Assembly (NCBI GenBank): GCA_944321345.1
Contig: CALUKY010000010.1
Location: 1 to 64,000 of the forward strand
Length of the DNA: 64,000 nucleotides
Origin: an uncultured Paraprevotella sp.
Lineage (GTDB): Bacteria; Bacteroidota; Bacteroidia; Bacteroidales; Bacteroidaceae
Direction of reading: 5' to 3'
Shown here: piece by piece, positions 52,737-64,000 of the stretch
How the letters are laid out: each line of letters starts with the position of its first letter
How positions within the stretch are numbered: position 1 is the stretch's first letter
Position numbers and translations under genes: made by a program
Notes under the pieces: model-generated
What the model saw: only the letters and a program-made list of their open reading frames with translations
Told to the model about the DNA's origin: nothing
Database searches by the model: none

Positions 52737-53177
52737 TTAAAAAAGTCTTTTGTTGGTGCAGTAGATAATAGCTTCGGACATGTTCTTGACGCGCAATTTC
52801 TGAAACAGTATTTTTTTCCTCTTTTTTATGGCACTCTCGGACAGCAGTAACTTGTCAGACATTTCCTTTTCTGTGAATCCCTGAATGGATAATCTGACAA
52901 TTTCCTTTTCCTTCTCGCTCAATTGAGGTCTTTGAAATTCCTCCCAACATCTTGTTTTCCGATTCCAAGTTATCTCTTTTTCGCCTATTTTGGCCATAAT
53001 GATTCCCGGACACCTTTGTTCCGTTAGGGAGACTTTACACAGTGCCCAGGCTATTTCCTGCCGCTTGTTCTTGACCAGCGGAATCAGAGTGTGATGTACA
53101 GGTAAATAAATGTCCCTGTTTTTGATGCGGAAATCATAAGATATATAACTGTCTTTTTCGCAATCCTTTTTTGACAA
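52737..53177 (-). CDS. LuxR-type helix-turn-helix regulator, N-terminus uncertain
   Basis: This 146-residue reading has a C-terminal LuxR-type DNA-binding domain at about 85-146: LSEKEKEIVRLSIQGFTEKEM, then DKLLLSESAIKKRKK. The part before it resembles the end of a PAS-like domain of Bacteroidales regulators (DFRIKNRDIYLPVHHTLIPL, WALCKVSLTEQRCPG). The first in-frame start is TTG at 53177. Upstream, sensible sequence continues for 17 codons (FLFEGNEISYRKYQDL) to a stop at 53229-53231, with no ATG. The gene therefore either starts at a non-AUG codon or has lost its N-terminal portion. It lies beside and divergent from the GG-leader export cluster, so it may control it if functional. Confidence 0.65.
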   Translation of the reverse strand: MSKKDCEKDSYISYDFRIKNRDIYLPVHHTLIPLVKNKRQEIAWALCKVSLTEQRCPGIIMAKIGEKEITWNRKTRCWEEFQRPQLSEKEKEIVRLSIQGFTEKEMSDKLLLSESAIKKRKKILFQKLRVKNMSEAIIYCTNKRLF

Positions 53178-53715: not shown

Positions 53716-55200
53716 ATGAGGATTCATGTTGCAAGACATATTTCATTAGTACCTCTATTTTTAGCTGTTTTTTTGCTAAAAAGTCAGGATGGTGTGGGGC
53801 GAACCATTTCGCTGGAATTCGTCTTGCAACATTTTGTACCAGAGATTCCGGAAATGAAGAGATTGTATTTGGATTTGGAGAACCGCAAGCTTTCTTATGA
53901 AAACTACCGCAAGGGTTTCCTTCCTGCAATATCTTTTCAGTGGGATTCTTTCCAATTTAACCGTTCCATACAACGTTTGCAGAATGCTTTTGATGGCAGT
54001 TATAATTACGTAGAGGATTATTCAGCATCTACGGGATTAAATGTTGCTTTGCAGCAATCATTAGGTATCACAGGGGGAACCGTACGAATCGGTACTTCCT
54101 TGGATTATTTACATGAATTTTCTTCAAATAAGAACAATTATACGACACGTCCTTTTTATATCAACTTATCGCAGCCTTTATGGGGTGGTCGTAAAGAATA
54201 TCAGTTTAGCAGGGATCTGGCCCGTATGGGTTATGAGTTGGCTTTTCGTCGTTTTGTTCAGGAGCGCTCCGCTTTGGAGGAGCAAGCTGTGACACTTTAT
54301 CTGAATGCGTTTTTGACGCGTTTGTCACAAGAACATGCCGTGCGAATGAAATTGTCCTCTGATACATTGTTGAATGTGTCTCGTCTGGCCTTACAGCATG
54401 GTCGTATTACCGATTATGAATTTAATCAGGTGGAATTGGAGTGTGCGGAGTCAGAGCACGCGGTCATCCAGACACGTGCCTCTTATGAAGAGGCTTTACG
54501 TGCAATTCAGAGTTTTTTGTGTTGCTCTTCTCCGCTTGTTCTTTCAGACAGTCTTTCAGTTGATTTCCCAAAGATTAGTGCAGACGAAGTGCTCCGATAT
54601 GCGATGGAAAACAATCCTGAAATGTTGAATCGGGAATATACGGTGCTTCAGGCCCGTTATCAGAGCTGGCAAACGAAGCGTGAGAACCGTCTTCAGGGGA
54701 ATATTTCAATAGATTATGGAGTAAATCGTTATGCCTCCTCTTTTTCGGCGGCTTATCGCCATCCGGAGAATCGCCAGAATATATCTGTAAGTTTGACTTT
54801 TCCTCTTTTTGACTGGGGGATAGGCCACAATAAGATTCGTATGGCACGGAACGAGACCGCGATGGCTGAACTGGATGCGGAACGTTCTTTGAAGAATCTG
54901 GAACAGAATGTCTTTGAAAAAGTTTCGTTATATAATACGGCTTTGTCCGGTTATGCTCTGGCCCGTAGGAGTTATGAGCTATCCATATCCAATTATGAAC
55001 TGATGTTACGGCGTTTCGATATATCTCGCATCACGGTGTCTGAACTGTTGGATTCACGGCGTTCAGTTTATTCATTTCAAGAGCAGTATTATGAATCACT
55101 TTACACACTATATACCTATTATTATCAGTTGAGGACGCTTTGCCTGTATGATTTTAAAAGGCATTGTGATATGAGTGAATTATTTGTTTATAATTATTAA
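53716..55200 (+). CDS. TolC-like outer-membrane channel of the GG-leader export cluster
   Basis: This outer-membrane factor (494 residues from 53716; an ATG at 53707 is also in frame) has a signal segment (HISLVPLFLAVFLLKSQ), then two OEP-type repeats. The second has the LTFPLFDWGIGHNKIRMARNE motif, equivalent to the V-P-I-L-D-W-G motif of the channel at 13468. Coiled-coil helices rich in Glu, Leu and Arg follow each repeat. It begins the cluster and ends 17 bases before the GG-leader gene, so channel and cargo are probably co-transcribed. It should pair with HlyD (62175) and the C39 exporter (63498). Confidence 0.87.
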   Translation: MRIHVARHISLVPLFLAVFLLKSQDGVGRTISLEFVLQHFVPEIPEMKRLYLDLENRKLSYENYRKGFLPAISFQWDSFQFNRSIQRLQNAFDGSYNYVEDYSASTGLNVALQQSLGITGGTVRIGTSLDYLHEFSSNKNNYTTRPFYINLSQPLWGGRKEYQFSRDLARMGYELAFRRFVQERSALEEQAVTLYLNAFLTRLSQEHAVRMKLSSDTLLNVSRLALQHGRITDYEFNQVELECAESEHAVIQTRASYEEALRAIQSFLCCSSPLVLSDSLSVDFPKISADEVLRYAMENNPEMLNREYTVLQARYQSWQTKRENRLQGNISIDYGVNRYASSFSAAYRHPENRQNISVSLTFPLFDWGIGHNKIRMARNETAMAELDAERSLKNLEQNVFEKVSLYNTALSGYALARRSYELSISNYELMLRRFDISRITVSELLDSRRSVYSFQEQYYESLYTLYTYYYQLRTLCLYDFKRHCDMSELFVYNY

Positions 55201-55217
55201 TTTAAAAATTTAAGATC

Positions 55218-56123
55218 ATGAAGACTATTACAAAAAGAAGTTTGGATGAATTGGCGAAGGAAATGCCTGTATTGAGTGAAATGGATTTGCGTGGTATGGT
55301 TGGTGGAACCGGAACTTTTACTGAAGAGGAGTTTTTGAGTATGTATATTACTAATGAGTGGGAAGGAGGACAAGTTGAAGGTTGGGGAAGTCTAGGTAAA
55401 TCTTTTGATTCTGTTTCAATGATCAGCGGAGAGCTTTATATTGACGGAAAAAATAAGGACGGAGAATTGGCACCTGATTTTCTAGAAGATGAGGATACAG
55501 GTTTTCAAGATGATCCTTTTGCAACGGATTCGGGCTTTTCTGGTGATTCCGGTATTGTGGATAGTAATGATTATCAGTTGGAAACCTTGATAAGTCAATT
55601 GTCTACCGAAGAGCGGCAATTGTTAGAGAAATATGATGCAGAGATTGTTATAGATCCAAATTGTACTAGGGCTGGGGAATTTCATGAATCTTCAAATAAG
55701 ATTGTGTTAAAGTCTTATGACTTATATGTTTTACGAGCAGAATTAATTCATTTAAAACAGGTGGATTTAGGTGCGATAGGAAATGAAAATCCTAGTTTTT
55801 CTAATGCAGAATTTCAAGAAGGAATTATGTCTTACTTTATGAAGGCTTGTTCTGGTAATGTACCTGCAGCAGTTCCAGTACAAGATTCTAAATTTGTAGA
55901 TTGGGCTGCTAGTGTAACTCATAACTTTGACAAATCCCAACCTTTGGATTTAAAAGCTTTTAATAATGGTGTAGGCTATTTTTATGATGTTTATAGACAA
56001 GAAATGTATCAAAAATATTTAGAAACAGGTAATAAGGACTATCTGAAGAATTCTGGGGAGCCTAATACTGAATACCAATGGAACTGGTTGAAAATGTTTA
56101 GTTATGCAGGGTTTAGCTATTAA
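55218..56123 (+). CDS. Double-glycine leader protein with degenerate zincin-like core
   Basis: This 301-residue protein is the likely exported substrate of the cluster. Residues 1-30 form a leader: helical, charged, with LDELAKEMPVLSEMDLRGMV and a cleavage site at G29-G30, followed by TGTF. Residues 31-120 are acidic and Gly/Asp-rich. Residues 125-220 look like a small metallopeptidase fold: VIDPN, then KIVLKSYDLYVLRAELIHLKQ, in which A174-E175-x-x-H178 keeps Glu and the second His of the HExxH motif but has Ala for the first His; a downstream F-Q-E-G (199-202) could supply a third ligand. There is no Sec signal. Codon and base usage are A/T-richer than in the neighbouring transport genes. 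It may be a toxin, bacteriocin-like effector or surface protein; function unknown. Confidence 0.75.
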   Translation: MKTITKRSLDELAKEMPVLSEMDLRGMVGGTGTFTEEEFLSMYITNEWEGGQVEGWGSLGKSFDSVSMISGELYIDGKNKDGELAPDFLEDEDTGFQDDPFATDSGFSGDSGIVDSNDYQLETLISQLSTEERQLLEKYDAEIVIDPNCTRAGEFHESSNKIVLKSYDLYVLRAELIHLKQVDLGAIGNENPSFSNAEFQEGIMSYFMKACSGNVPAAVPVQDSKFVDWAASVTHNFDKSQPLDLKAFNNGVGYFYDVYRQEMYQKYLETGNKDYLKNSGEPNTEYQWNWLKMFSYAGFSY

Positions 56124-56318
56124 TGCGGATTTAAGAATAATTTATGGTAGATACTAATAGCTTTTTGATAGACTTGTTTTATTTATATTGATATTTTTTA
56201 ATTTAATTTTTATACTTTGATATGAATAGAGTTTTTATTAAATAAAAATATAAACTAAAAAAAAGATTTTTAAATTGTTATCTTGCCGATGATTGTTTGA
56301 CTTTTTTAGAAAATTATT

Positions 56319-57083
56319 ATGAATAAGATTATGTTAAATTATATTTTTTTATTGCTTTTTAGTCTTGTTTCTGTAATATTAAAGGCGCAAGATCCTGTCT
56401 CAAAAGAAGTTTGTAACTTTGTGGTAGAGGACTCTCAGCAGTATGACTATCAGCCGGAGTTCGCGGTCGATATGAAATTGATTTGCTTTCACTTTTTAAA
56501 GTGGCCCGAAGGTTATCCTTCTGAGCGGCCTTTGTCTGCGGAGATACGTTTCACAATTGGTTCGGATGGTGAAATAACAGATATCGTTCCAGATGCCGAT
56601 TCACCGGAAGTGAAGGGTGAGATAGAGCGGATGTTCTCCTCTCTGCCCAAGGCTTTGCCAGCATGGCAGGATGGTAAGGCTGTAGTCAGCACTTGTGTGC
56701 TGCGTTTGCACATGGACAAATCGGCATGGGACCGCTATCAACGGAAAGAAGCTGAGACCGACAGCCTAATACGGTTTGGTCGAGTTCATGTGAATCCGGA
56801 ACTTCCAGCCATCCCGTCTGACGGAATGGACATATTCCAAAACTACTTGACAACTCTCTTGCCTGAGAAATCCTCTGGAAAATTGTTTTATTCTTTTGTG
56901 GTAAAGAAGGACGGACGAATGAGTGAAATCACATGCGTCAGAAATTCTACGAAGGATCAGGAACTGGAGAAAAAAGTGACCAAAGCACTGATAACGATGA
57001 GTGAAAAATTTCGTTGGCGTCCAGCATCTGCTGGTTTTGCTTTTGTGGATAGTAAGCTTTCTATTCCAATAACACTAAAATGA
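56319..57083 (+). CDS. Secreted protein with tandem TonB-C-like domains, copy 1
   Basis: This 254-residue protein has a signal peptide (ending VILKAQ) and two TonB-C-like domains (about 40-140 and 150-254). Each has the beta-hairpin F/Y-x-x-G-x-x-x-D/E-I pattern: EIRFTIGSDGEITDI in the first and FYSFVVKKDGRMSEI followed by CVRNSTKDQELEKKV in the second, with W-R-P near the end. There is no anchoring helix as in an energy-coupling TonB, so it is probably a free periplasmic protein. Its stop overlaps the start of the truncated LanC-like gene (ATGA). A 195-base A/T-rich gap separates it from the GG-leader gene. A paralog lies at 57363. Confidence 0.75.
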   Translation: MNKIMLNYIFLLLFSLVSVILKAQDPVSKEVCNFVVEDSQQYDYQPEFAVDMKLICFHFLKWPEGYPSERPLSAEIRFTIGSDGEITDIVPDADSPEVKGEIERMFSSLPKALPAWQDGKAVVSTCVLRLHMDKSAWDRYQRKEAETDSLIRFGRVHVNPELPAIPSDGMDIFQNYLTTLLPEKSSGKLFYSFVVKKDGRMSEITCVRNSTKDQELEKKVTKALITMSEKFRWRPASAGFAFVDSKLSIPITLK

Positions 57084-57340
57084 AACCTAAATATTCTTAT
57101 TCTGCCAGTCCTGTATTTGCGGGGCTGGTAGATTACCTGAAAATGAACGCGACCACATTAGGCGGGAGTGGTTATGATCAGGGAAGAAGCGGTTTCTCCT
57201 TATTGTTCTTTGAGCTGGCTGATTTTCTGAATGATGCTGCGTTGGAAGATTTGGCATCGGACTTGTTGATGCAGGTTTTATTGTACCGTAAAGACTTCGC
57301 AATAAGGTCTTGTTTTTGTTGGGTATATAGAAATATATGA
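57080..57340 (+). pseudogene. Truncated copy of the LanC-like gene
   Basis: The first 68 codons match the start of the gene at 59051; 131 bases (57089-57219) are identical to 59060-59190. From 57220 to about 57285 similarity drops, then it ends and the frame continues into unrelated sequence (YRKDFAIRSCFCW) to a stop. About 250 residues of the full protein are missing, so this is a remnant. It overlaps the upstream stop by ATGA. Confidence 0.85.
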
Positions 57341-57362
57341 TTAATCCTTAAAAAAAAACATT

Positions 57363-58139
57363 ATGAGAGAAATATTGAAACTTTTGGAAATAAGTCTCTG
57401 TATGCTTGTTTCTATAGCCTTGAATGCTCAGGAGCGCTCCAGCGAAATCTGTACTTCTTTGGAAGTGGAAGATTCTTCTTTTTATGATTATCTACCGGAG
57501 TTTCCGATTGATCCTCATACATTATGCCGGTTTCGTCTGGACAAGTGGCCGACAGACAGTCTGCCTGATCAGAGGCTGACCGCCGAGATCCGTTTTCAGG
57601 TTTCTGCGGATGGAAGCATTGAAAACGCAACTTGTCTGTATTCTTCTCCCATTATAAGGCAGAACCTGAAACAATTATCATCCAACTTACCTAAAATGTT
57701 GCCGGCATGGAAGAATGGTGCTCCTGTGGGATGTTCTTGTGTGCTTAAAGTGCGTCTGAATAAGGCGGAATGGGACAGAGCACAGGAAATGAATGCGAAA
57801 ATTGACAGCATTTCAGAGGTGAGAGTTGTTTTTCATCCAATTTCAACTAATCCGGAGCCGTCCGACGGTTGGGGTTCTTTCTGGGATTATATCTATAGTC
57901 GCCTTCCTAAAGATATTTCCGGAAGGTTGATTTATACCTTTACAATATGTTCCGATGGAAGGATGGTTGACGTGAAGTGTGTCAGAAATACCACGAAAAA
58001 TGAGGAGTTCCAGAAAATGACGGATCGTATTTTGGCGGAGTATAGTCAGAAATACCGATGGTTCCCAAGCGTTTATAAACGTTCTCTCAAATTTGAGGAT
58101 TGTGGCTATTGTATCGCTATTGAAAGGAATTATCGTTAA
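57363..58139 (+). CDS. Secreted protein with tandem TonB-C-like domains, copy 2
   Basis: This 258-residue paralog of the protein at 56319 has a signal peptide (ending SIALNAQ), the shared start VEDSSFYDYLPEFPID, a first domain with EIRFQVSADGSIENA and LPAWKNG, and a second with LIYTFTICSDGRMVDV and CVRNTTKNEEF. Identity with copy 1 is moderate, so the duplication is not recent, in contrast to the LanC-like repeat next to it. Several Cys are conserved between the two copies, suggesting periplasmic disulfides. The role in the cluster is unknown. Confidence 0.75.
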   Translation: MREILKLLEISLCMLVSIALNAQERSSEICTSLEVEDSSFYDYLPEFPIDPHTLCRFRLDKWPTDSLPDQRLTAEIRFQVSADGSIENATCLYSSPIIRQNLKQLSSNLPKMLPAWKNGAPVGCSCVLKVRLNKAEWDRAQEMNAKIDSISEVRVVFHPISTNPEPSDGWGSFWDYIYSRLPKDISGRLIYTFTICSDGRMVDVKCVRNTTKNEEFQKMTDRILAEYSQKYRWFPSVYKRSLKFEDCGYCIAIERNYR

Positions 58140-58161
58140 ACAAATTTAAAAATATAGAGCC

Positions 58162-59046
58162 ATGAGAACGAATATGAAAACTTTAAGCTGGTTGCCGGTC
58201 TTGTTCGTGCTGGCATTTGCCTGTTCCCTTGATTTATCCGCCCAATTATGGAAGAGGCATGTCTTCTCTTTCCAGAACTCCCCGGACTCCGTAACTTGTG
58301 TCTATAAGGCGAATACGAACGAACTGATCGTGTCGGGTTTCGACACGGATGGCAAGGGCACATTCTATTTCCTGGGCGGCAGCCCGCTGACGGTTACCTG
58401 TTACGAACAGGGCAAGCTGGCCTATCGTCGTCCGTTGGGTATCCGCTTTTCGGGCATGGTGAGTTTCCGTCTGATCGGCGATTCGCTTTATCTGATCCAT
58501 CGCGAGGACCATGCCATGTATCGAATGCACTGTGACAATAAGGGGGCTGTTGATTGTATCCCATTGAAAACGCCTCCCTTTGAAAGATGCTTTATCGGTC
58601 CCATTGATGCCGAGCCGTCCTTTAAGTTGTCTAATGTAAAGAACAGCATAACCAGTAGCCGTATTTATGACTTTCACCAGAATCTTCTTCGGGAATATTC
58701 CTGCCGTACCGGGGATGAACTGCTGTATGATTCCGTCTATCAGCATATCCCGGATAATTTGGAGTATTTCGGACGTTATAAGGGGTATCGTGTATGTATG
58801 AAGGATTATGCCACAATTGTTTTGGTGGATGATAGCGGTGAAATCGTCCGTCAGACCGGCCGCACCTATGAAGAGCTGGATTGCTGGTATGTACTGAATT
58901 CCAGAAGTGATACGATTGAGAACTGGGGAGCAACCGCAGAAGTCCGTGTCCTTAGAAACAACCATTTCTATATGCCTACTTTCAATGCGAAGAAAGAACT
59001 GGTGGTATGGGATGTGAATGTAGACGCGCTTTGGAAGGATTATTAA
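58162..59046 (+). CDS. Exported protein of unknown function
   Basis: I do not recognise the family of this 294-residue protein. The N-terminus (MKTLSWLPVLFVLAFACSLDLSAQ) is a signal peptide; the Cys in LAFAC could make it a lipoprotein, although the box is imperfect. The body has repeated beta-strand segments (SFQNSPDSVTCVYKANTNELIVSGFD; split at SGFD, and FRLIGDSLYLIHREDHAMYRM near residues 100-120), reminiscent of a beta-propeller or other all-beta fold. An ATG at 58174 is an alternative start. It lies between the TonB-C-like and LanC-like genes, spaced 22 and 4 bases from them, hence in the same operon. Confidence 0.65.
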   Translation: MRTNMKTLSWLPVLFVLAFACSLDLSAQLWKRHVFSFQNSPDSVTCVYKANTNELIVSGFDTDGKGTFYFLGGSPLTVTCYEQGKLAYRRPLGIRFSGMVSFRLIGDSLYLIHREDHAMYRMHCDNKGAVDCIPLKTPPFERCFIGPIDAEPSFKLSNVKNSITSSRIYDFHQNLLREYSCRTGDELLYDSVYQHIPDNLEYFGRYKGYRVCMKDYATIVLVDDSGEIVRQTGRTYEELDCWYVLNSRSDTIENWGATAEVRVLRNNHFYMPTFNAKKELVVWDVNVDALWKDY

Positions 59047-59050
59047 GGTT

Positions 59051-60061
59051 ATGACACTGAAATATTCTTATTCTGCCAGTCCTGTATTTGCGGGGCTGGT
59101 AGATTACCTGAAAATGAACGCGACCACATTAGGCGGGAGTGGTTATGATCAGGGAAGAAGCGGTTTCTCCTTATTGTTCTTTGAGCTGGCGGCTTTTCTG
59201 AAGGATTCCGCATTGGAGGATTGGGCTTCGGAATTGTTGATGCAGGCTTTATTAACCCAAACCCGGAATATCAGTTTTGATAAAGGCTTATCTGGAGTCG
59301 GCTATGTTCTGGAATATTTGATACAGAACCGTCTGGTGGATGCAAGGTTTGATGAATTGTTTTCGGCACAGACAGAGCTTGTCGTATCGGAGTTGGAGCG
59401 TATCATGAAAGAGGATCTGTCAAAGTGCCTCTCTCAAGTACGTACCTTGCGTTTCCTTCTTGGTTCGGGAAATTGTGAGTACATTTCTTTGGCAATTTCA
59501 TACTTGAATGTTTTACAGGAACGGATTAACGAGGTCTTTCAGCAGATTCTTTCAAGGGACAGGATCTATAATCTTGATCAGCTGGCAAATGTCTGGAACT
59601 GCTTGCTTTATATTATATCCCTTTTGAAGGATTACCCTATCCGTAAGGATGTCCTGAAAAACTATGGGCATCTTTATCGCTCCGGAATGTTTAAATATGA
59701 TTTTGAGACCCGATATTGGTTTCAGATTTTGGGCATGGAAGAGCGGTGGATGGAAACCCCGGCGGACCTATCCGGCAGAATCTTGTGGGAGCAAAGGATG
59801 TCCGATGTATTCTTGTCCGGTCTGAGGGAACACTCCCATTTTCTGGTCATCCATGGCCATGATTCCTTGCTGGAAGGATTGGAGCAAAAGCTTCTTGTCG
59901 GAGATAAAGACAAAATGGAAAAGGAACTGGAGCGTATTGTTCCGGGAAAGACAAAAAAACTGAGTCTTCGGAATGGAATCCCCAGATTGGTGTTGTCTTT
60001 GATTTATATGAATTCAGAGCCTTCAGTCCGCAAAAGACTGTGGTCGGTATTAATGGATTAA
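59051..60061 (+). CDS. LanC-like (lanthionine cyclase-related) protein lacking zinc ligands
   Basis: This 336-residue protein begins with the pattern seen in LanC-like proteins of Bacteroidota peptide clusters: a helical start, GGSGYDQGRSGFSLLFFELAA near residue 30-50, and FDKGLSGVGYVLEYLIQN near 75-95, the G-x-x-G helix-turn motif of the LanC alpha-toroid. The Cys and Cys-His-Gly zinc ligands of true cyclases are absent in the C-terminal half, and the protein is shorter than typical LanC (about 400). It may therefore be a non-catalytic or altered member. It starts 4 bases after the preceding stop and is followed by two glycosyltransferases. Family assignment is by motif only. Confidence 0.6.
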   Translation: MTLKYSYSASPVFAGLVDYLKMNATTLGGSGYDQGRSGFSLLFFELAAFLKDSALEDWASELLMQALLTQTRNISFDKGLSGVGYVLEYLIQNRLVDARFDELFSAQTELVVSELERIMKEDLSKCLSQVRTLRFLLGSGNCEYISLAISYLNVLQERINEVFQQILSRDRIYNLDQLANVWNCLLYIISLLKDYPIRKDVLKNYGHLYRSGMFKYDFETRYWFQILGMEERWMETPADLSGRILWEQRMSDVFLSGLREHSHFLVIHGHDSLLEGLEQKLLVGDKDKMEKELERIVPGKTKKLSLRNGIPRLVLSLIYMNSEPSVRKRLWSVLMD

Positions 60062-60071
60062 ACCAAAAGAT

Positions 60072-61331
60072 ATGATGAGAAAAGATCATTTTGTCCGAAA
60101 GCAGATTGTGGTTATGGTCATGAGTGATGAGAGTAACTTTTCCGGCGTAGGGCGCTTTCTACAATGTCTGCTGGATGGACTTTCTTCTTTGGAGAAAATC
60201 AGATTCTGTTATATACATCTGGTTCAGGATAAGAATCAGATTTTTGTTAAAAAGATAAAACATCCTCATTTTGTGGAAGTACGTATCCCCCTTCCTTTAA
60301 ATATGAGCGAGATGATCCGTCAGGGATATTGGAACGAAGCATATAATTTGTCGATATATCCTTATTTGAAGGATTTGTTGGAGGATGGATGTATTTTGCA
60401 TCTGAATACTGTGAATCTGATCGATCTGGCATTGTTTCTGAAAAAAAGAAAACGGTGCAGCATCGTTTCTCATCTTCATTGTCTGCCATGGAAGGCTAAT
60501 TATAACACGAATCGGCAGAAGTTTAATATGCTATATGAACTGCAACGTAGTGGAAAAGTAGAACAGAAAGACATATCACGCTTTTTTCAGATACGTTCTG
60601 AGGCTGATTTTTATTTTAAATCTGATCGTATTGTCTGTGTTACAGAATGTGCTCGGAAATTTTTGCGCGATATTTTGCGGATACCGGATTCAAAGATACG
60701 TGTGGTTTATAATGGAATGAGGGACAAGGCGGGGGAGGTTGTCCACAGGTCAGATACCAGCCTTTTTCAATTGGTTTATGTAGGAACTTTGTCTGCGAGT
60801 AAAGGATTGCCATTTATTTTGGAAGCTTTGAAACTGGTTCAATCCTGGGGGTATCGGGCCAAACTGAAAATAGCCGGAAAGACGACTGACAGAATGCGGG
60901 GCTTCTTACAGTCAAAATATAGTCATCTTGATTTGGATTTTTTGGGTTTGGTGCCTTTTGAGGTATTGGCTGATATATATAGGACAAGTGATGCCGGAAT
61001 CATTGCTTCCTTGCAGGAACAGTGTAGCTATGCGGCTATAGAAATGATGATGTTCGGACTTCCAGTTGTCTCAACCGAAGTTGATGGACTGAGGGAATTG
61101 TTTAGCGATAAGGCAAATGCTTTGCTTGTACCAGTAAAATTTTCTTTGTTAAAAGGGCTTAGAGCAGATATTGAAAGGATGGCAAAGCAGATTGTTTACC
61201 TGATGACTCATCGTTTGCAAACTTTGTGTATGGGACGCAACGGGCGGAAACAATATGAGAACCGATATACTGAGGAAGTGATGATGAAAAATATAATGGA
61301 TGTTTTTTGTGAATTAGATGACAATTTGTAG
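60072..61331 (+). CDS. Family 4 glycosyltransferase of the GG-leader cluster
   Basis: This 419-residue GT-B enzyme has an N-terminal domain with FSGVGRFLQCLLDGL and a C-terminal domain with LVYVGTLSASKGLPFILEAL and IIASLQEQCSYAAIEMMMFGLPVVSTEVDGL (motif E-Q-C-S-Y-A-A-I-E, the GT4 E-x7-E region). Similar enzymes occur in Bacteroidota ribosomal-peptide clusters. Whether it modifies the exported cargo or a surface glycan is unknown. It starts 10 bases after the LanC-like gene and is followed 3 bases later by a GT2 gene. Confidence 0.85.
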   Translation: MMRKDHFVRKQIVVMVMSDESNFSGVGRFLQCLLDGLSSLEKIRFCYIHLVQDKNQIFVKKIKHPHFVEVRIPLPLNMSEMIRQGYWNEAYNLSIYPYLKDLLEDGCILHLNTVNLIDLALFLKKRKRCSIVSHLHCLPWKANYNTNRQKFNMLYELQRSGKVEQKDISRFFQIRSEADFYFKSDRIVCVTECARKFLRDILRIPDSKIRVVYNGMRDKAGEVVHRSDTSLFQLVYVGTLSASKGLPFILEALKLVQSWGYRAKLKIAGKTTDRMRGFLQSKYSHLDLDFLGLVPFEVLADIYRTSDAGIIASLQEQCSYAAIEMMMFGLPVVSTEVDGLRELFSDKANALLVPVKFSLLKGLRADIERMAKQIVYLMTHRLQTLCMGRNGRKQYENRYTEEVMMKNIMDVFCELDDNL

Positions 61332-61334
61332 ACT

Positions 61335-62165
61335 ATGAGAGTAAATGTCAGTGTTTTGATGCCGGTTTTTAATGGAGAAAAATGGATTGCGGAAGCGATA
61401 GACAGTGTATTGAATCAGAGTTATACGGATTTTGAGCTTTTGATTCTGAACGATGGTTCTACGGATAGTACAGAGCAAGTCATTCTTTCATATAAGGATA
61501 AGCGGATAAAATATGTGAAAAGGAATCATGATTTCATTTCTGCTTTAAACGATGGCTTGAGGATGGCACAAGGAAAATATATTGCCCGGATGGATGCGGA
61601 TGATGTGATGCATCCGGACCGATTGAAGATTCAGGTGTCTTTAATGGAAAGAAATCCGGAGATAGATTTCTGTAATTCCTGGTTTACCTTGCTTACGAAC
61701 GAGGAGCATAATCATATGGTAGTCCGGAAGCACAGTGGCTTGGTACTTAGGCCGTCGTTAGTTCTGTTGGGTGAGAATATATTTTGTCATTCTGCGATGA
61801 TGATGAAACGTTCTTTTCTGGTCCGGCATGCATTGGAATATGAAAAGGATTTTATCTATGCTGAAGATTATCGAATGTGGACAAGAGCAGCAGAGTATGG
61901 AGCTGTTTTTTATGTTGAACCCCAGTCTTTGCTTTTTTATCGTTATTCATCTGAACAGGTATCAAGGACTAAGGCTTCTCAGCAACGGATTTCCGGGCAA
62001 AAGGTTAAAGAGGAACTCGTAAACTGGATGGTAGGTCAAGTTCATGAAAAGGAACTTGTGGAGCGATTCTACGCGTTATTGAAAGAGATGAAATCCAAAA
62101 ATATGCTCAGTGAAGAATTACTTTATAGATATGTCTACATGTTGTTCAAACAGAATCTGTCATAA
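61335..62165 (+). CDS. Family 2 glycosyltransferase of the GG-leader cluster
   Basis: This 276-residue GT-A enzyme has VSVLMPVFNGEKWIAEAIDS, QSYTDFELLILNDGSTDST and the D-x-D type motif ARMDADDVMHP near residues 84-94, followed by YAEDYRMWTRA as acceptor-side motif. It has no membrane segment. It is co-transcribed with the GT4 gene (3-base gap) and the HlyD gene (9-base gap). Its place inside an export operon suggests glycosylation of the cargo or of a cell-surface receptor. Confidence 0.9.
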   Translation: MRVNVSVLMPVFNGEKWIAEAIDSVLNQSYTDFELLILNDGSTDSTEQVILSYKDKRIKYVKRNHDFISALNDGLRMAQGKYIARMDADDVMHPDRLKIQVSLMERNPEIDFCNSWFTLLTNEEHNHMVVRKHSGLVLRPSLVLLGENIFCHSAMMMKRSFLVRHALEYEKDFIYAEDYRMWTRAAEYGAVFYVEPQSLLFYRYSSEQVSRTKASQQRISGQKVKEELVNWMVGQVHEKELVERFYALLKEMKSKNMLSEELLYRYVYMLFKQNLS

Positions 62166-62174
62166 TTAGGTTTT

Positions 62175-63491
62175 ATGAGTCAAATGAACGAGGAACATGA
62201 TGCTTTAAATAGGCAAAAGCATAATTATAGCGAGGAAGTGCGGGATATCGTAGACCGCATGCCTACCCGTTGGGCGATGTGGACGGCACTGATTACTTTT
62301 ATTCTGATTGGTGTGGTGTTCATATTGAGTTTTGTCATCAAGTATCCAGATACAGTGCTTGGTGAAATTACTGTTACTTCGGAATCCGCTCCGGTCCGGT
62401 TGAGCGCGCAGTCTTCCGGCCGTTTGCGTTTGGTGCGTCGGAACGGGGAGAATCTGAAGAAAGGGGATTATGTAGCTTATATGGAGAGCGGGGTAGACTA
62501 TCCGGACTTTCTGTGGCTGGACCGTTTTCTGGATACGGTGGATATTCATAAATCCTTTATGATTCCTAACCGTAAGCTTTTGTTGGGGGATATGACTTCC
62601 GCCTACAACAGTTTCGCACAGAGTAAATGGAAATTGGATCTGTTGCGTCATTCGGGACTGTATGACAATATGCGTTCTTCTTTGAGAGAGCAGATCCGCG
62701 CCGACCGCGCCCTGATGGAAAGCCTGCTTCGTGAAAGGGAGGTAAAGCGGGAACTGCTGGACGGAGCCGGAAAACTGTTGCATGAAGACAGTCTGCTGAT
62801 GCTGGAGAAAGGGATCAGCAAGGAGGCTTATCAGAGCCGGCGGGATGAATGGCTGAACCGTAGGGAGGCCTGTCAGAACGTAGAAAGCAACAGGCTGGTC
62901 AAAGAGGCGGATATCAGTCGGAGTAATTTGGAGCTGGTTCGTACCGATATAGAAGAACAGGAAGCTTTGCTGTCCGCGTATTCTGAACTGGAGTCGGCAT
63001 TCAACGCTTTGTGCAATGTGGTACGTTTGTGGAAGGAGCATTACCTTTTTGTTTCTCCCGTTTCCGGGGAACTGGAATATTTAGGCTTTTGGAAAGAATA
63101 TGCTTTTGTAGACGCGGCGCAGGAGTTGTTTTGTATTATTCCCGAGGAAGGCAGAATTGTGGGTGAGGTATATCTTTCACCTTCCGGTGCGGGAAAGGTA
63201 AAAACAGGTCAGGAAGCTGGAGTAAAGCTGATGGATTATCCGTATGATGAGTTCGGGAAACTGACCGGACGGGTGGCCTCCGTATCCATGATGACTCGTA
63301 AAATTGGTACTCAGGAAGGAACTGCAGAGGTTTATCTGGCACTGATTGATTTCCCGGATGGAGCGAAAACCAATTTCGGACAACGGCTCAGACTGAATCC
63401 GGAGAGCAAGGGAACTATAGAAATCATTACCAAACCGAAAAGGTTGATCCAGCGTCTGTTTGACAACCTTAAATCAAAAACCGAGAAATAA
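62175..63491 (+). CDS. HlyD-family adaptor of the C39 exporter
   Basis: This 438-residue membrane-fusion protein has a cytoplasmic N-terminus, one membrane segment (about 36-57, ALITFILIGVVFILSFV), a barrel-sandwich domain (SAPVRLSAQSSGRLRLV and DYVAYMES), a long helical hairpin (about 120-285) and a beta-barrel end (GRIVGEVYLSPSGAGKVKTGQEAGVKL; motif G-x-V-K-x-G-Q near residue 345). It is the type used with peptidase-containing ABC exporters. It ends 6 bases before the exporter gene. Together with the TolC-like protein at 53716 it completes a type 1 secretion path. Confidence 0.9.
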   Translation: MSQMNEEHDALNRQKHNYSEEVRDIVDRMPTRWAMWTALITFILIGVVFILSFVIKYPDTVLGEITVTSESAPVRLSAQSSGRLRLVRRNGENLKKGDYVAYMESGVDYPDFLWLDRFLDTVDIHKSFMIPNRKLLLGDMTSAYNSFAQSKWKLDLLRHSGLYDNMRSSLREQIRADRALMESLLREREVKRELLDGAGKLLHEDSLLMLEKGISKEAYQSRRDEWLNRREACQNVESNRLVKEADISRSNLELVRTDIEEQEALLSAYSELESAFNALCNVVRLWKEHYLFVSPVSGELEYLGFWKEYAFVDAAQELFCIIPEEGRIVGEVYLSPSGAGKVKTGQEAGVKLMDYPYDEFGKLTGRVASVSMMTRKIGTQEGTAEVYLALIDFPDGAKTNFGQRLRLNPESKGTIEIITKPKRLIQRLFDNLKSKTEK

Positions 63492-63497
63492 CCGCTT

Positions 63498-64000
63498 ATG
63501 TTTAAACGTTTTCCTATTGAATATCAGATGGACTCACAAGATTGTGGGCCCGCCTCCCTGAAGATGATTGCCAAATTTTATGGTAAGTACTATTCTTTGC
63601 AATATCTTAGAGACAAATGTGGCATTACCAAACAGGGAGTGTCCCTGCTGGATATCAGTACCGGAGCCGAGTCTATCGGCTTGCGTACACTTGCCTTGCG
63701 GTGCAGCCTGGATGATGTGGTCTATAAGGTGCCCTTTCCTGCCATTCTTTTCTGGAACGAGAATCATTTTATCGTAGTTTATCGGGCAGACAAGAAACAC
63801 GTGTGGGTGGCCGATCCCATGAAAGGGCGTGTGCGCTATACACACGAAGAGTTTGCCAAGGGATGGTGTGATCGGGAAACTCATTTGGGGGTTCTGTTGG
63901 CTGTGGAGCCTACAGCGGGATTCAAGGACTCCAAAGCTGAAAAAGAAATGCAGAAAAACAGTTTTCTCAGCATCCTGAAATATTTCTATCCTTATAAAGG
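63498..64000 (+). CDS. C39-peptidase ABC exporter, cut by the window end
   Basis: The 167 visible residues form an N-terminal C39 peptidase domain: the catalytic Cys16 in SQDCGPASLKMIAKFYG, with Gln10 as the oxyanion-hole residue six positions before it, the His in NENHFIVVY near residue 89 and the Asp in VADP near 105. This domain cleaves after the Gly-Gly of leader peptides. The membrane and ATPase domains should follow past 64000. Its presence explains the G29-G30 leader of the 55218 product. The gene is incomplete only because the window ends. Confidence 0.93.
   Translation, partial: MFKRFPIEYQMDSQDCGPASLKMIAKFYGKYYSLQYLRDKCGITKQGVSLLDISTGAESIGLRTLALRCSLDDVVYKVPFPAILFWNENHFIVVYRADKKHVWVADPMKGRVRYTHEEFAKGWCDRETHLGVLLAVEPTAGFKDSKAEKEMQKNSFLSILKYFYPYK

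Follow-up and report, generated by a model that had tools for sequence, protein, structure and literature searches.

The end of a 64,000-nucleotide stretch of DNA from an uncultured gut Paraprevotella sp. (GenBank assembly GCA_944321345.1, contig CALUKY010000010.1, positions 1 to 64,000 of the forward strand; hereafter the window) carries, as one string, genes for a TolC-like outer membrane efflux protein (OEP), an HlyD-like adaptor and a C39-peptidase ABC exporter, together with a 301-aa protein with a double-glycine (GG) leader (cargo 1), a LanC-fold protein, glycosyltransferases and exported proteins. The comparison of related loci suggests that this is probably (at a rough estimate, seven chances in ten) a polymorphic toxin–immunity system whose toxins are exported by a C39-type type I secretion system (T1SS). 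In polymorphic toxin systems as described, a constant N-terminus is combined with swapped C-terminal toxin domains, and immunity genes occur next to the toxin gene, as orphan loci and in polyimmunity fusions (Zhang et al. 2012, PMC3482391; here and below, statements about this and the other papers refer to the portions of their text that were covered). In the present family a conserved N-terminus with a variable C-terminus, a co-varying adjacent gene with a presumed immunity function, and recombining cassettes were all found.

The C39 domain of the exporter would cut the cargo leader after the GG, and the cargo would be pushed out via HlyD and TolC to act in the envelope of competing Bacteroidota, on peptidoglycan or on envelope proteins. 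An exported partner, which for cargo 1 would be the adjacent TonB_C-like protein TonBC_a, would shield the producer in its own periplasm. Export, cleavage, toxicity and glycosylation are all predictions from the comparison of genomes.

GG-leader cargos and their exported partners

All parts of a C39-type T1SS are present in the string: the C39-ABC protein, the HlyD adaptor and, upstream, the TolC-like channel. This bears out the initial annotation, made from the window's sequence without database searches, which had proposed one export string with a large GG-leader cargo. The 728-aa ABC protein aligns to PCAT1 (4ry2) across its residues 3-719, and its N-terminus is a C39 domain with Cys16, which we take to be the catalytic residue, within QDCGPAS. 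Among the best 80 of 120 relatives of the exporter, those from named genomes, the titles name Bacteroidota with the sole exception of one Candidatus Cloacimonadota. Where LanC was short (about 200-240 aa) and the exporter ~43% identical, the locus was treated as a different system and excluded.

A leader model built from 11 cargos gave 69 candidates in the fetched loci, 47 of which were kept, with mature lengths of 120-429 aa (median 169). In the 34 leaders from loci outside the model's training set, a residue of the group LIVMF is found at position -12 in 33, at -15 in 28, at -13 and at -3 in 27 each, and at -4 in 23; a W-x-GG-type motif follows shortly after the leader in 15/47 cargos. As judged from these sequences, the relatives have the leader in common, while the domains at their C-termini are interchangeable and in many cases belong to types found in toxins. 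The mature cargos match (Pfam, E <= 0.05) CHAP in four cases (best 5e-11), Toxin-JAB1 in three (1e-19), Tox-MPTase2 in three (7e-7), and DUF5675 (1e-18), Peptidase_C70 and Peptidase_C39_2 in two each; another twelve families are matched by one cargo each, several likely by chance, and some of the domain-bearing cargos are closely related (L121/L122, L070/L090). HExxH occurs in 11 of the 47, against a mean of 0.13 and a maximum of 2 in 500 shuffles. The exchange of C-termini can be seen in the tandem cargos of locus L043, which are identical at 118 of the first 120 aligned positions and then at 40 of 103, and between which lie repeated 3' ends of the GT2 glycosyltransferase gene. At three loci (L186, L187, L021) the post-GG motif was also observed in proteins that have no leader and whose C-termini are zincin- or JAB-like; they adjoin a GT14-methyltransferase fusion (L186 PF02485 E=5e-13; the others by eye).

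The gene that follows a cargo tends to encode an exported protein. The first downstream open reading frame (ORF) within 500 bp, which 4/47 cargos did not have, is exported in 38 of 43 cases, compared with 112 of 339 control ORFs, namely other 100-450-aa ORFs of the same loci (Fisher p=2e-12); export was called by a simple home-made hydrophobicity rule, and near-identical loci were kept in the count. Partner and cargo also co-vary: among 54 cargos and their first partners, 38 of 1,416 inter-locus pairs are homologous in their C-termini and 14 of these 38 are homologous in their partners as well, a number reached in none of 2000 permutations in which the partners were shuffled (mean 0.91, max 5). 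The partners belong, among others, to the TonB_C, erythromycin-esterase-like, DUF5030 and DUF3828 families, and one matches the Rce1-like PF02517, a family linked to CAAX self-immunity (PMC4573289). Erythromycin-esterase-like proteins recur at L005, L024, L026, L050, L065, L071, L076 and L142 (by model) and at L029 and L046 (by eye), and several of their genes directly follow cargos with hydrophobic C-termini. A row of four exported-looking ORFs of ~205 aa, related by chained matches, follows a zincin cargo at L020:11448-13870 and is a possible immunity array.

Toxin-JAB1 and Tox-MPTase2 are shared between the present cargos and the polymorphic toxin systems of Zhang et al. (2012, PMC3482391), as are, with immunity presumed here, the features named at the outset for those systems. 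The present locus differs in that it traffics by a C39 T1SS with a GG leader, and the first 300,000 characters of that paper mention none of T1SS, type I or type 1 secretion, TolC, HlyD, double-glycine or leader peptide. The partners here are also mostly exported, whereas Imm65, a lipoprotein, is called exceptional there. Among the matches listed in a search of the open-licence literature (subscription papers and preprints lying outside its scope), none describes polymorphic toxins of large size that carry a GG leader and leave by a C39 exporter.

Layout of the locus and its inserted cassette

The source genome (G000) is 2.90 Mb and 91% complete, and the window is the first 64000 bp of contig C10 (75,427 bp), so named here; L005 denotes the region of this contig that runs past the window, G008 a genome of the same genus, and L083 the locus of Candidatus Paraprevotella stercoravium, the nearest named relative found (exporter 98% identical). 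From 53,716 the plus-strand order is OEP, cargo 1, TonBC_a, LanC fragment, TonBC_b, EXP1, LanC-like, GT4, GT2, HlyD and C39-ABC:

52737..53177, minus strand: LuxR-type regulator, without the N-terminal ~88 residues of the 249-aa G008 copy (tblastn match of that copy limited to residues 89-249, 92.5%)
53716..55200, plus strand: TolC-like outer membrane efflux protein, OEP (PF02321 E=7.2e-30; start matches the G008 gene)
55218..56123, plus strand: cargo 1, with GG leader (1-30), post-GG motif, acidic Ser/Gly linker and zincin-like C-terminal domain with AELIH instead of HExxH
56319..57083, plus strand: TonBC_a, exported TonB_C-like protein, candidate cognate immunity protein of cargo 1 (PF03544 at cut-off)
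57080..57282, plus strand: direct repeat 1, LanC 5' end (93.1% identical to 59051-59253)
57080..57340, plus strand: truncated LanC-like ORF, 86 aa, probably left over from cassette insertion
57363..58139, plus strand: TonBC_b, second exported TonB_C-like protein, candidate orphan immunity protein (PF03544 E=1.3e-5)
58162..59046, plus strand: EXP1, exported protein, candidate orphan immunity protein (weak match E=4e-4 to L188:7555)
59051..59253, plus strand: direct repeat 2, 5' end of the intact LanC gene
59051..60061, plus strand: LanC-fold protein without conserved zinc ligands, putative helper in cargo maturation or export
60072..61331, plus strand: GT4 glycosyltransferase, TIGR04157-like, under the family cut-off (E=1.6e-62, 211.8 bits vs 400)
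61335..62165, plus strand: GT2 glycosyltransferase (PF00535 E=8e-35)
62175..63491, plus strand: HlyD-like periplasmic adaptor (TIGR01843 E=1.9e-21; PF13437)
63498..64000, plus strand: C39-peptidase ABC exporter, 728 aa, ending at contig position 65684; the window holds the first 167 residues
L005:2720-3925 (contig C10:65719-66924): cargo 2, GG-leader protein with CHAP domain (PF05257 E=1.2e-10)

Beyond the window (L005) the string continues with this second GG-leader cargo, whose CHAP domain is C-terminal, an exported erythromycin-esterase-like protein, a second LanC-like protein, GT4 and GT2, and then a glycosyltransferase, GT_c. The fourth codon of cargo 2 is a TGA stop, so its leader is broken in this assembly.

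Compared with L083, the window has an additional 1,768 bp (57283-59050) that hold TonBC_b and EXP1 and lie between the 203-bp LanC-start repeats (93.1%); in L083 and G008, TonBC_a passes straight into LanC. The L083 locus likewise lacks the stretch from cargo 2 to GT2_b (contig positions about 65667-71970). TonBC_b and TonBC_a are 38% identical, and in a further genome (G003) the EXP1-like gene L188:7555 lies beside a TonBC homologue. Another contig, C24, encodes an orphan 512-aa protein (L006:10211-11749) in which two partner-type halves are fused: one half is akin to CHAP-cargo partners (L070, E=1e-31) and the C-terminal half is 73% identical to TonBC_a (TonB_C 2.3e-7). The same kind of fusion is carried by G008 (L194). 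The C24 fusion gene adjoins a LuxR-type gene like the one at 52737 of the window. TonBC_b and EXP1 are candidate orphan immunity genes acquired by recombination, and by analogy the C24 fusion, the G003 pair and the cassette look like the orphan and polyimmunity patterns of Zhang et al. (2012). The two glycosyltransferases, two TonB-C-like proteins and exported protein listed by the initial annotation are thus present as described; it had left the TonB-C-like and exported proteins unexplained, and for these the comparison points to cognate and orphan immunity. Neither TonBC nor LanC had a confirmed relative on viral contigs.

The zincin-like domain, the LanC-fold protein and the glycosyltransferases

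Cargo 1 has a mature part of 271 aa after the GG leader and a GC content of 0.355, compared with 0.464 for the window; it is full-length in G008 (89% identical), where TonBC_a also directly follows it. The zincin-like remnants noted by the initial annotation are borne out: a zincin-like layout is retained and the first zinc histidine is missing (AELIH for HExxH). Among nine aligned relatives, HExxH is intact in three and the first histidine is missing in six, whereas the glutamate, the second histidine, a glutamine and the glutamate of EFQ are invariant in all nine. Because these four residues are invariant despite the missing histidine, a kept function is suggested for the domain. It recurs behind other N-termini, and each time the following gene looks exported (by eye). 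A structure search (Foldseek) returned nothing under E 0.001 for either of two models, and searches of solved structures with the cargo alignment A6 and with A5, the alignment of the partners of other zincin cargos, gave no convincing match.

The distribution of the cargo-1 domain was followed across the genomes that carry it, with matches at E <= 1e-60. It occurs with a GG leader and a C39 exporter in G000, G008, G012 and G014 (in G014 the leader was read by eye, the cargo's neighbouring exporter is truncated and the remaining exporters are 40-44% identical). It lacks the GG leader in G685, G609 and G505 (86, 92 and 84% complete), where all ABC matches begin at residue 243 or later and so leave out the C39 part, and G515 has C39 exporters but a cargo-1-type cargo without GG leader. 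The initial annotation had named homologues of the cargo without any C39 exporter as evidence against its reading, and on this the outcome is mixed: leader and exporter were both seen in the first four genomes, three have neither, G515 has the exporters but not the leader, and G017 has a GG-leader cargo without a C39 exporter being found. Read from these gene contents, the toxin-like domain is not tied to the C39 exporter, which fits the expectation for polymorphic toxins, and GG leader and exporter mostly co-occur, with G017 (see below) as the one exception.

The LanC-like protein belongs to the LanC fold, and as had been proposed it lacks zinc ligands: in its alignment (A9) no Cys or His is invariant, or nearly so, whereas the zinc ligands of LanC are a C...CH triad (PMC10352776). 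Since the zinc site is lost, a role in binding or as a scaffold, perhaps for GT4 and GT2, is more probable for the protein than one as a cyclase. The GT4 proteins of the window and of L005 match TIGR04157 nearly full-length (211.8 and 211.3 bits), below the curated cut-off of 400, and the cargo here is a large protein. SG is found 2.46 times per 100 aa in the 25 cargos from loci with GT4 and 1.64 times in the 22 from loci without (p=0.056); that the Ser/Gly linker is glycosylated is a conjecture. GT14 'Branch' enzymes, which might likewise modify the linker, lie beside cargos at L186 (PF02485) and, by eye, at L020, L021 and L187; none was seen in the window's string. A 1241-aa ORF at L142:2-3727 has a LanC match and a start that is glycosyltransferase-like by eye, and it may be a fusion.

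Alternative readings and significance

Several observations weigh against a toxin–immunity system served by the C39 exporter. Loci were sampled with the exporter or LanC as anchor, so the linkage of exporter and cargo is partly circular, and in G017 (99% complete) a GG-leader cargo adjoins a zincin-domain ORF, yet no C39 exporter is found at E <= 1e-60. A telling Pfam match is present in just about one third of the 47 cargos. Among the partners, five of the 43 first downstream ORFs fail the export rule (two, at L083 and L095, look exported by eye), and no Pfam family named immunity was found in the 49 of 59 partners scanned (E <= 1e-6; at E <= 0.05, 25 of the 53 matching families were listed). 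The 14 co-varying pairs fall into 10 cargo groups and are therefore not all independent; 24 of the 38 homologous cargo pairs have partners of no detectable similarity, and 17 pairs have homologous partners but no cargo homology. The 24 include cargo 1 with L019, L020, L183 and L185, whose partners form family A5; homology of TonBC_a, with its two TonB_C-like repeats (by eye), to that family is unsupported (hhalign probability 2.5%), and the pairing of cargo 1 with TonBC was observed in G000 and G008 only. The weakest point of the account is cargo 1 itself, whose activity is doubtful because the first zinc histidine is missing.

This last point is shared by the view that the locus is decaying, with cargo 1 an inactive pseudo-enzyme, the leader of cargo 2 broken, the system defunct in the source genome and immunity alone retained. 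The stop in cargo 2, the truncated LuxR gene and the extra immunity-like genes agree with such decay, but the frames of the exporter, LanC, glycosyltransferases and cargo 1 are open, cargo 1 is conserved at full length in G008, and its four invariant residues suggest a kept function; we regard decay as unlikely. There is a smaller chance that the cargos are housekeeping or host-directed secreted enzymes, such as peptidases and peptidoglycan hydrolases, with chaperones, inhibitors or co-substrates as exported neighbours. The recognised cargo domains are indeed mostly peptidase- or amidase-like, and the partners could be periplasmic inhibitors of self-digestion with no role in competition, yet C-terminal swapping, cargo-less partner homologues (L188, C24), the row of four partner ORFs at L020 and the partner fusion look like conflict systems.

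It is less probable still that the string is a cluster for a ribosomally synthesized and post-translationally modified peptide (RiPP), with the GG-leader protein as a precursor modified by the LanC-like protein and the glycosyltransferases and exported as a natural product. In its favour, GT4 resembles a family named for CFB peptide maturation, and the LanC-like proteins show weak similarity to the cyclase portion of class III/IV synthetases. The comparable BGC3-5 of Bacteroidales, with zinc-less LanC-like proteins, glycosyltransferases or carbohydrate-active enzymes and GG-type leaders, have been presented as candidate RiPP clusters, without report of a homologue of a described immunity protein, and in BGC5 a further protein follows each of the two long-core precursors, as in the cargo–partner order here (PMC10352776). 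However, BGC3-5 hold radical SAM (rSAM) and pseudo-rSAM genes, and BGC3 and BGC5 have no C39 exporter, whereas the present window has the whole exporter gene set. No rSAM, LanB or LanM family was found among the NCBIfam matches listed for 10 window and five L005 genes (the 71-aa ORF of L005 left out), which together with the lost zinc ligands also sets the locus apart from lanthipeptide clusters. The cargos, moreover, are of 120-429 aa when mature, some have recognisable enzyme domains, and cargo 1 and five others match no NCBIfam family. Bacteroidetocins share the GG leader and the C39 peptidase-ABC exporter, but their mature peptides are of 42-48 aa (PMC6671954), compared with 271 aa for cargo 1, which also has exported immunity-like partners.

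Class II microcins have a GG leader, a C39 peptidase-ABC exporter and a mature peptide under 10 kDa, a size that the 271 aa of mature cargo 1 do not fit.

A polymorphic toxin–immunity system with C39 export thus remains the preferred reading. More tentatively, the family might be a widespread, unnamed weapon class of Bacteroidota in which folded toxins leave by C39 type I export and a dead LanC-fold subunit presents the acidic Ser/Gly linker to dedicated glycosyltransferases, giving a glycoprotein; it would include a zincin-like lineage without the first zinc histidine but with the E, H, Q and E, and hence perhaps with a changed metal site or a mode of action other than proteolysis.

The C39 secretion route is not usually linked to mix-and-match antibacterial protein weapons. 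The comparison suggests what many GG-leader proteins of Bacteroidota that lack annotation may do, and likewise the zinc-less LanC-like proteins and the exported neighbours of the TonB_C-like, DUF3828-like and erythromycin-esterase-like kinds; some of these have so far been classed as odd RiPP clusters. If it is correct, a route known mainly for small bacteriocins would also carry swappable protein toxins, and the immunity genes would be markers of strain warfare in gut communities.

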